Assembly (NCBI RefSeq): GCF_004768545.1
Contig: NZ_CP038635.1
Coordinates: 2,852,001-2,916,000, forward strand
DNA from: Cupriavidus oxalaticus
GTDB taxonomy: Bacteria > Pseudomonadota > Gammaproteobacteria > Burkholderiales > Burkholderiaceae
Length of the DNA: 64,000 nucleotides
Direction: 5' to 3'
Both the position numbers and the translations under genes were made by a program. Below are positions 22,196 to 38,304 of this stretch, piece by piece. The notes under the pieces were generated by a model, which ran no database searches, was not told the DNA's origin, and worked only from the letters and a program-made list of their open reading frames with translations. Every line of letters starts with the position of its first letter. The first letter of the stretch is position 1.

Positions 22196-22280
22196 GCCCG
22201 GGTGGTGAAACAGGTAGACGCAGGGGACTCAAAATCCCCCGCCGCAAGGCGTGTCGGTTCGAGTCCGACCCCGGGCACCA
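22196..22280 (+). tRNA. tRNA-Leu, anticodon CAA
   Basis: The 85-nt sequence folds as a class II tRNA with an encoded CCA end. The acceptor pair GCCCGGG/CCCGGGC flanks the molecule, the anticodon stem GGGGA/TCCCC encloses loop CTCAAAA (anticodon CAA, reads UUG), there is a long variable arm, and the T arm is GTCGG-TTCGAGT-CCGAC. The discriminator base is A, as expected for leucine. Confidence 0.96.
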
Positions 22281-36860: not shown

Positions 36861-36889
36861 TTGACACCCGGGCCCATGCGCCTTATATT
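36861..36889 (+). promoter_or_regulatory. Consensus sigma-70 promoter upstream of argD leader
   Basis: TTGACA (36861-36866) and TATATT (36884-36889) are separated by exactly 17 bp. The predicted transcription start falls at 36896-36897, on or next to the A of the leader ATG. Confidence 0.85.
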
Positions 36890-36896
36890 TGCCCGC

Positions 36897-36965
36897 ATGC
36901 ATACGACCTTCAACCGACGCCGCAGCTTCCGTACGTCGCTCCCCGCTGGGGTGCCGCGCGGCTGA
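36897..36965 (+). CDS. Putative leaderless Arg-rich leader peptide upstream of argD
   Basis: A 22-codon ORF encodes MHTTFNRRRSFRT followed by SLPAGVPRG. Five of 22 residues are arginine, including three adjacent Arg codons (CGA CGC CGC). It begins within a base of the predicted start site of a consensus promoter and has no ribosome site, so translation would be leaderless. It stops 28 nt before an intrinsic terminator, and argD follows. The layout is that of a ribosome-mediated attenuator sensing arginine. It is not tested here and could be fortuitous. Confidence 0.55.
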   Translation: MHTTFNRRRSFRTSLPAGVPRG

Positions 36966-36993
36966 CCGTCGACTGCGTCTGTTCAGGTCAACG

Positions 36994-37020
36994 AGCCACG
37001 GGCAACCCCCGTGGCTTTTT
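36994..37020 (+). terminator. Intrinsic terminator/attenuator in front of argD
   Basis: A 9-bp stem AGCCACGGG (36994-37002) pairs with CCCGTGGCT (37008-37016) around a 5-nt loop and runs into TTTTTGTTTTT. It lies between the leader ORF and argD (ATG 37092), so it must be read through or avoided for argD expression from the upstream promoter. Confidence 0.88.
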
Positions 37021-37091
37021 GTTTTTCCGCGCTTTTCCGCTTTTTTCCTGCTTGTCCGTCCATCGTTTAAAGCCGACCCCTGGAGTCCGCC

Positions 37092-38279
37092 ATGGCATTT
37101 GCTGAGTTTCCCGTCCAATCCCTGATGTACATCACCAACCGGCCCGAGCTCGTCTTCACCGAAGGCAAGGGCTCCTGGCTGACGGACCACAACGGCAAGC
37201 GATACCTGGACTTTGTGCAGGGCTGGGCGGTCAACTGCCTGGGCCACTCCAACCAGGGCATGATCGACGCGCTGGTCGAGCAGTCGAAGAAGATCATCAA
37301 CCCGAGCCCGGCCTTCTACAACGAGCCGATGCTGCGCCTGGCCAAACAGCTGACCGATAACAGCTGCTTCGACAAAGTCTTCTTCGCCAACAGCGGCGCC
37401 GAAGCCAACGAAGGTGCGATCAAGCTGGCGCGCAAATGGGGCCGCAAGCACAAGAACGGCGCCTACGAGATCATCACCATGGACCACAGCTTCCATGGCC
37501 GCACGCTCGCCACCATGAGCGCGTCGGGCAAGGCCGGCTGGGACACCATCTTCGCGCCGCAGGTGCCGGGCTTCCCCAAGGCCGAGCTGAACGACCTGGC
37601 CTCGGTCGAGAAGCTGATCACCGACAAGACCGTCGGCATCATGCTGGAACCGGTGCAGGGCGAAGGCGGCGTGATCCCCGCCACGCGCGAGTTCATGCAG
37701 GGCCTGCGCGCACTGGCCGACAAGCACAGGCTGCTGTTCATCGTCGATGAAGTGCAGGCCGGCTGCGGCCGCTGCGGCACGCTGTTCGCGTACGAGCTGT
37801 CGGGCGTCGAGCCGGACATCATGACGCTGGGCAAGGGCATCGGCGGCGGCGTGCCGCTGTCTGCGCTGCTGTGCAAGGCCGAAGTCGCCAGCTTCGAGGC
37901 CGGCGACCAGGGCGGCACCTACAACGGCAACCCGCTGATGACCGCGGTGGGCAGCGCAGTGATCGAGCAGCTGACCGCGCCGGGTTTCCTGGATGACGTC
38001 AAGGCCAAGGGCGAATACCTGAAGGAGCAGCTGCTGGCGCTGTCGGCCGAGTTCGGCCTGGGCGGCGAGCGTGGCGAAGGCCTGCTGCGCGCCCTGCTGC
38101 TGGACAAGGACATCGGCCCGCAACTGGTGGAAGAAGCCCGCGACATGGATCCGCAAGGCCTGCTGCTGAACGCGCCGCGCGCCAACCTGCTGCGCTTCAT
38201 GCCGGCGCTGAACGTCACGCGCGAAGAGATCGACCAGATGATCGGCATGCTGCGCACGCTGCTGAAGAAGCTGGCCTGA
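37092..38279 (+). CDS. argD: Acetylornithine aminotransferase (class III)
   Basis: The 395-residue PLP enzyme interconverts N-acetylornithine and N-acetylglutamate semialdehyde in arginine synthesis. It has [19 protein letters not shown] (phosphate site), [17 protein letters not shown], the [12 protein letters not shown] segment, [16 protein letters not shown] with the cofactor Asp, and the PLP lysine in [18 protein letters not shown] role as succinyldiaminopimelate aminotransferase is also possible for this family. CTGGAG lies 6 nt before the ATG. It appears to be monocistronic and attenuator-controlled. Confidence 0.9.
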
Positions 38280-38286
38280 CAAAAAA

Positions 38287-38304
38287 GCCTCGCGTAAGCG
38301 AGGC
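38287..38304 (-). terminator. Terminator for the leftward liv operon
   Basis: GCCTCGC/GCGAGGC with a GTAA loop is followed on the minus strand by TTTTTT (complement of 38281-38286). It points to the livHMGF transcript, although it sits just 7 bp after the argD stop; on the plus strand it has no T-run. Confidence 0.7.

Follow-up and report, generated by a model that had tools for sequence, protein, structure and literature searches.

A candidate leaderless, ribosome-mediated arginine attenuator in front of argD in Cupriavidus oxalaticus and related bacteria

The trp, his, leu, ilv, thr and phe attenuators provide the class features of ribosome-mediated attenuation. The argD leader described here resembles them in the run of end-product codons within its short ORF and in the terminator before the biosynthetic gene, and in the alternative 1:2, 2:3 and 3:4 pairings predicted for it, with the stop codon near region 2; it departs from them in its arginine codons, in its gene, argD, and in a start codon set directly against the promoter. 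In the accessible parts of two surveys (PMC2965389 and PMC1262725) no arginine member of the ribosome-mediated attenuators was found. A leaderless attenuator ORF is described, in the available portions of two papers, for trpL/rnTrpL of Sinorhizobium meliloti, where the RNA begins at the ATG (PMC7298713; PMC10117765). The argD leader is similar in that its RNA is predicted to start from the leader ATG and that the terminated RNA would be an sRNA; trpL differs in its amino acid, tryptophan, and in its sequence, and rnTrpL/peTrpL are reported in those portions to be translated and active in trans. In Salmonella, according to the part of PMC6386406 available, consecutive arginine codons in the speF leader ORF, orf34/SpeFL, sense arginine in the control of polyamine synthesis through mRNA decay. 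The argD leader is likewise an upstream ORF with consecutive arginine codons; speF differs, on the same partial account, in that it is not an arginine-synthesis gene, that Rho and RNase G act in place of an intrinsic-terminator switch and that high arginine lowers its mRNA. T-boxes bind tRNA directly, without a leader ORF. They control arginine genes in other bacteria (PMC1262725, in its accessible part). Such control is exerted on the RNA and depends on the charging of tRNA, as would that by the argD leader; an Rfam search of the window and leader gave no T-box match. Finally, a homologous RNA of Burkholderia cenocepacia, BcKCsr7/nc5U30/RIT34, is filed as an sRNA, and the accessible literature on it yielded no leader peptide, link to argD or role in arginine metabolism.

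The window, that is the whole 64,000-nucleotide stretch of Cupriavidus oxalaticus DNA that was analysed, carries argD behind a leader whose features are collected in Table 1. As given in a preliminary description, a consensus promoter, an abutting ATG, a 22-codon arginine-rich ORF, an intrinsic terminator and argD are all present in the sequence. Five of the 22 codons are for arginine, three of them consecutive (36915-36923); by position, this run overlaps region 1 and the stop codon lies inside region 2, and a transcription start 7-8 nt past the -10 box would fall on 36896 or 36897. The argD leader would seem to be an arginine-specific, ribosome-mediated transcription attenuator, with a predicted response to arginine, and we put the probability of this at roughly 0.8; it probably switches the gene on at arginine shortage. 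The attenuation layout had already been proposed in the preliminary description, and both the layout and the in-frame arginine run, conserved across genera and families, support the proposal.

Table 1. Features of the argD leader, in window positions
Feature	Position	Strand	Basis
Sigma-70-type promoter of the argD leader, TTGACA-17-TATATT	36861..36889	+	Sequence, promoter scan; similar box pair before the leader ATG in 95/96 distinct family sequences
-35 box TTGACA	36861-36866	+	Sequence
-10 box TATATT	36884-36889	+	Sequence; 17-nt spacer to -35
Predicted transcription start, at or beside the A of the ATG (leaderless)	36896..36897	+	Inferred from -10 spacing
Leader start codon ATG	36897-36899	+	Sequence; 7 nt past the -10 box
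Leader ORF, 22 codons and TGA, reads MHTTFNRRRSFRTSLPAGVPRG*	36897..36965	+	Sequence; 128/128 loci have the run in frame with an ATG picked by promoter score
Candidate control codons CGA CGC CGC (Arg7-9), region 1, can pair with region 2	36915..36923	+	Window pairing by eye; 1:2 pairs counted in relatives
Further Arg codon CGT (Arg12)	36930..36932	+	Part of CCGU 36929-36932, pairing with ACGG 36998-37001 in the predicted stalled-state fold
Local hairpin SL1, directly 3' of the Arg codons	36934..36958	+	Window fold; hairpin at the equivalent place in seven clade alignments
Arg21 codon CGC, adjoining the ORF end	36957..36959	+	Sequence
Region 2 (GGCUGACC), overlaps stop codon TGA 36963-36965	36960..36967	+	Folds of leaders, clade alignments, window fold
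GGUC, forming the inner portion of the candidate antiterminator helix with 36964-36967	36986..36989	+	Clade alignments, window fold
Region 3, terminator 5' arm GAGCCACGGG	36993..37002	+	In the candidate antiterminator, AGCC 36994-36997 is the partner of 36960-36963; equivalent pairing in relatives
Intrinsic terminator: 10-bp stem 36993-37017 and T-rich tract	36993..37028	+	Sequence, terminator scan; stem -17.9 kcal/mol
Match to Rfam RF02884 BcKCsr7	36883..37021	+	28.2 bits, E 4e-4; gathering score 59
argD, acetylornithine transaminase, behind the terminator	37092..38279	+	NF002985, 784 bits

The promoter scan returned one site against a shuffle mean of 0.2. The terminator scan returned two against 1.9 in shuffles, a count that is by itself not above chance; the terminator is lifted above chance because the leader element is conserved, its DNA being present in 23 of 24 genomes of the same genus, the window's own among them (the sole miss is 54% complete). 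On sequence and conservation an intrinsic terminator is present between the ORF and the biosynthetic gene, and termination there is predicted. The whole leader folds somewhat better than its shuffles (z -1.95, 9/200 as good), for much of which the terminator may account. A terminator-like hairpin at 38287-38304 lies between argD and an oppositely oriented ABC-transporter gene, and argD looks monocistronic in the window. The only Rfam match at its gathering threshold in the window is a tRNA gene at 22196-22277. A search of the same genome for promoter-abutting ATGs gave three further exact consensus promoters (L304, L305 and L306), none with an amino-acid leader by eye; two of them open ORFs of 201 and 194 aa, by eye TetR-type regulators, and the third an ORF of five codons only.

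In the mechanism envisaged, transcription would begin at or beside the ATG, giving a leaderless mRNA whose short ORF a ribosome would translate. A shortage of charged tRNA-Arg would stall this ribosome on the CGA CGC CGC run, where it would cover region 1. Region 2 (36960-36967) would then be available to both 36986-36989 and region 3 (36994-36997), and with the antiterminator thus formed RNA polymerase would continue into argD. When arginine is plentiful, the ribosome would reach the stop codon inside region 2 and cover that region, the 36993-37017 terminator would form, and only a leader RNA of about 130 nt would be made.

The leader element was matched by DNA search in 40/40 same-genus genomes listed with an ArgD. 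This search is insensitive outside the genus and was replaced for the family by an ArgD protein search and reading of the upstream regions; of 299 family genomes, 30 of them hand-chosen for poorly covered genera, 275 yielded an ArgD, and the upstream regions were read for part of the 275. Among 96 distinct family sequences, defined as those with a GCCACGG...CCGTGGC terminator, 95 have an ATG 6-8 nt past the end of the -10 box that opens a short ORF with at least two consecutive arginine codons, as found by a script that favoured ORFs with RR. The run is of two codons in 11 of these, three in 31 and four in 53. At the sole exception, L136, only an argD fragment was matched. Nineteen family loci are without the terminator pattern and 17 of them are without the leader; the two that still bear the arginine run are L117, which has Ns across the start, and L174, which is without only the exact terminator pattern. 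At L168 a promoter-like stretch runs straight into argD, and the other 16 have no recognisable leader (13 of the 16 were read by eye, like L117 and L168; L111 and L119 were only scanned). A Burkholderia leader query matched 65/65 genomes of Burkholderia searched.

Across the order a window-type ArgD (E <= 1e-90) occurs in 18 of 120 genomes. By eye, an arginine-run leader is present at nine of these 18 loci (the window, L177, L179, L181, L183, L185, L186, L189 and L191) and absent from nine. Family f8 contributes 29 loci, of which 25 have a terminator of the GCCACAGG or ACCACAGG type, and in 24 of those 25 a promoter-abutting ORF with RR is found. In L217, from genome G460 of this family, the start and terminator are kept and the arginine run is lost, the leader reading MNIQTKFNRGSTSLVQSGKPCA with a single arginine codon, and the locus could serve as a natural experiment on losing arginine control. 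Four others of f8 (L210, L215, L218 and L219) have neither leader nor terminator. Nine loci of families f3, f24 and f5, anchored by hand, have arginine-run ORFs and quite different terminators, and a plausible promoter abuts the ATG in eight of them, that of L183 being doubtful. A script was applied to 58 of 80 named loci, the 22 distant ones (L282-L303) being left out; it found the leader in Cupriavidus, Paraburkholderia, Caballeronia, Burkholderia, Pandoraea, Herminiimonas, Collimonas, Undibacterium and Herbaspirillum autotrophicum, and no leader among these 58 in Achromobacter, Pusillimonas, Pelistega, Polynucleobacter, Glaciimonas, Zoogloea, Azonexus, Dechloromonas or Bordetella genomosp. 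13. A similar layout is found, unexpectedly, before the Bradyrhizobium-type argD in a different proteobacterial class, with 10-12 arginines in 28-30 codons, a TTGACA box in front of the ORF and an AGGCCGC-type hairpin behind it. This set comprises 12 loci picked for being positive (L261, L264-L272, L274 and L278; ten Bradyrhizobium and two alphaproteobacterial assemblies, with the alphaproteobacterial L273 left out), in eight of which a strict scan scored a terminator. Past argD at the distantly related locus L186 there is a match to the manganese (yybP-ykoY) riboswitch (2795-2971).

The leaderless start is predicted from the spacing of the -10 box, and published coordinates from B. cenocepacia bear on it. 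In the part of PMC10987360 available, an RNA on chromosome 1 of strain J2315 is placed at 2,967,641-2,967,787 (147 nt) and listed as RIT34 = nc5U30 = Bc_KC_sr7 = IG1_2967543. By arithmetic the published 5' end of this orthologue is 98 nt past the number in the intergenic name, an offset that assumes the IG number to be the start of the intergenic region. In Burkholderia the ATG lies 96-102 nt past the upstream stop codon in 36 of 41 rows, with 98 the commonest value, and in 38 of the 41 the distance from the ATG to the end of the hairpin is 147-150 nt, close to the length of the reported 147-nt transcript; some of these rows come from one genome, they cover 41 of 42 loci (L169 was missed), and J2315 is not among them. 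On spacing arithmetic, the B. cenocepacia coordinates agree with a 5' end at the ATG to within a few nucleotides. Translation of such an RNA in the Burkholderiaceae is plausible by analogy, because leaderless mRNAs are known in C. metallidurans, where 4.67% of primary starts give rise to them (PMC7563307), and leaderless genes also in B. cenocepacia (PMC4603805), both sources as far as they are accessible.

The same RNA is known from Rfam. Leaders from related genera match RF02884 ("Burkholderia sRNA 7") with scores of 164.7 bits for L155, 162.8 bits for L166 and 130.8 to 89.1 bits for L065, L107, L147 and L118, all six matching along the full model and exceeding the gathering score of 59. The window (28.2 bits), L058 and L061 do not reach that score, and no match at the 59-bit cut-off was seen for L001, L179, L181, L186, L191, L265 or L267. 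By sequence match, orthologues of the argD leader are RF02884 BcKCsr7, so that the RNA is not wholly new. The preliminary description knew of no arginine leader peptide of this kind in beta-proteobacteria; the RNA itself had already been catalogued, as an sRNA only. The listings and abstracts consulted, subscription papers and supplements lying outside the search, describe no arginine attenuator of argD, and argD is not mentioned in the main text of PMC6321483 or of PMC4603805. The main text of PMC5688073 describes short 5'UTRs arising from processing or attenuation and names neither argD nor a leader peptide.

That BcKCsr7 is a stand-alone small RNA acting in trans, its position before argD being incidental, is improbable. 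Rfam does file RF02884 as 'Gene; sRNA', and two reviews, PMC10987360 being one source, in the parts available list Bc_KC_sr7 among the sRNAs with confirmed expression. Against this, the conserved core is an in-frame arginine run, and the alternative name nc5U30 would place the RNA in the short-5'UTR series of Sass 2017. Linkage to argD can be judged from a DNA search made independently of argD, since most other loci were retrieved via argD and are uninformative on the point; of the 20 matches fetched from it, 14 had argD behind them, and the six that did not (L067-L069 and L071-L073) are chance or terminator-only matches with no arginine leader. Two of these six, L071 and L073 (genomes G077 and G232), have a leader-like terminator stem of the AATGAAGCCACGGGCAC type at another locus. 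A broader and still unlikely reading would combine the two functions: the leaderless arginine attenuator would be old and widespread, in ArgR-less Burkholderiales and in Bradyrhizobium, and its terminated product BcKCsr7 would be a small leaderless mRNA with two roles, attenuation in cis and an action in trans exerted by the RNA or by the arginine-rich peptide, like rnTrpL/peTrpL for tryptophan.

For the structural switch of the proposed attenuator, leaders were folded with a ribosome footprint masked at the first arginine codon, whereupon region 3 paired upstream with a probability above 0.5 in 21 of 22 leaders. Its partner is usually region 2 just past SL1; the best fold of L120 pairs elsewhere, and in a Pandoraea-type leader the region 3 pairing is 0.03 with the first codon masked and 0.6 with the second. 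RNAalifold applied to seven separately aligned clades gives a common architecture of SL1 followed by a GGC/GGCU that pairs with the terminator arm, and in the fold of the window GGCUGACC at 36960-36967 pairs with GGUC 36986-36989 and AGCC 36994-36997. This is likely to be the antiterminator, a prediction supported by conservation and the shared architecture and not by shuffles or by two-sided changes in the 2:3 helix. A different antiterminator was suggested in the preliminary description, pairing 36942-36950 with CCACGGG; the letters are present, and the pairing is rejected, as its bases lie in the SL1 hairpin and vary in close relatives (CCCCGCTGGGG, CCCCACCGGGG, CCCTACCGGGG).

Alignments gave the following counts, which are to be read with the caution that the structures were drawn from the very sequences tested and that the shuffles ignore relatedness. 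In alignment A2 (40 sequences) 95% of cells are paired in the 1:2 helix against at most 57% when slid, and 90% in the 2:3 helix against at most 39%; no covariation is found in either set of pairs in A2, and the pairs hardly vary. In alignment A1 (24 family f8 sequences) the 1:2 structure has ten pairs with two-sided changes, a number reached by 0/500 shuffles, four of them in the 1:2 helix, one beside it and five in an inner helix. The 2:3 structure has seven such pairs (12/500 shuffles as high), five falling within the inner helix, two within SL1 and none in the 2:3 helix proper, of whose cells 95% are paired in A1. Regions 2 and 3 flank the covarying inner helix, which is compatible with either state and fits 1:2 equally.

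Shuffling of single sequences gave no general support for the antiterminator, the mean region 3 pairing over 21 representatives being 0.59 against 0.50. For L065, L115 and L149 no more than 0.7% of shuffles reach the observed pairing, for L150 2.3% do, and the other 17 are unremarkable. The antiterminator segment of the window folds no better than its shuffles (z +0.86, 163/200 as good), and a swap test between families, run with fixed 9-nt arms by which the f5 arm was badly cut, returned 0.061. In several leaders an upstream partner stays available to region 3 when 12 nt past the stop codon are masked; for the window the pairing probability is then 0.75, at only -4.5 kcal/mol compared with -17.9 kcal/mol for the stem of the terminator and -26.9 in the stalled state. 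These negative single-sequence tests, together with a terminator-scan count that equals chance, would suit an unregulated, constitutive terminator, one shielding argD from the gene upstream or lowering argD expression. On this view the ORF would be incidental to RNA structure: CGACG..CG can form pairs with region 2 as well, so that RNA pairing could preserve those bases. We give this explanation little credence: a promoter-abutting ATG in 95/96 family sequences and properties of the arginine run itself speak against it.

In a peptide-blind repeat the ATG was picked by promoter score alone at 130 loci, from which L217, without CGACG, and one locus without an ATG drop out to leave 128, a set that includes related sequences and is not independent. 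In all 128 the arginine run is in frame with no stop in between, at nine distances from the ATG that range from 18 to 48 nt. Nine distances require at least eight length changes, every one of them a multiple of three, and this keeping of frame and of a stop-free run counts against the constitutive terminator, as does the synonymous variation of third positions within the run. CGG, AGA and AGG account for none of the 425 run codons at the 128 loci, compared with 19 of 121 arginine codons in eight window ORFs that are CGG or AGG, and the first codon of the run is CGA in 126/128 loci, compared with 4/121 arginine codons in those ORFs. In E. coli, one tRNA isoacceptor reads CGA, CGC and CGT. Outside the run the peptide varies by clade (GVPRG, AAVC, RYRLR, SSRTRA, GKPCA). 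The preliminary description had made its reading depend on conservation of the leader and on how freely its arginine codons vary, and in the comparison the run, frame, promoter-abutting ATG and terminator are kept and the rest of the peptide changes. Conservation of the arginine run in peptides that otherwise diverge by clade favours codon sensing over an arrest peptide. Nascent-peptide arrest of the SpeFL or TnaC kind, in which the peptide would sense arginine or ornithine in the exit tunnel, is the least credible explanation, for although the C-terminus is well kept within the window's genus (..VPRG or ..VPRR) and a Salmonella leader ORF with consecutive arginine codons is described, in the part of the source available, as conveying the arginine level, the C-terminus differs by clade with only the arginine run in common, and the RNA pairing of SL1 and region 2 can account for its conservation within the genus.

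An attenuator of this kind would fill a regulatory gap. No ArgR (PF01316) was detected in 40 genomes of the order, the window's own included, in a search whose positive control found it in 9 of 14 named genomes, eight of them over the cut-off, and the accessible part of PMC5343134 describes ArgR and several other regulators as highly conserved in gammaproteobacteria and absent in other classes. The argD leader is a concrete candidate, open to testing, for how arginine is sensed in the control of its own synthesis without ArgR. The findings also suggest that an RNA family held in Rfam as an 'sRNA' is the terminated leader of argD. If the attenuator is borne out, arginine would join the amino acids with a ribosome-mediated attenuator, and its leaders would be a sizeable natural collection of leader ORFs with leaderless starts among Gram-negative bacteria.
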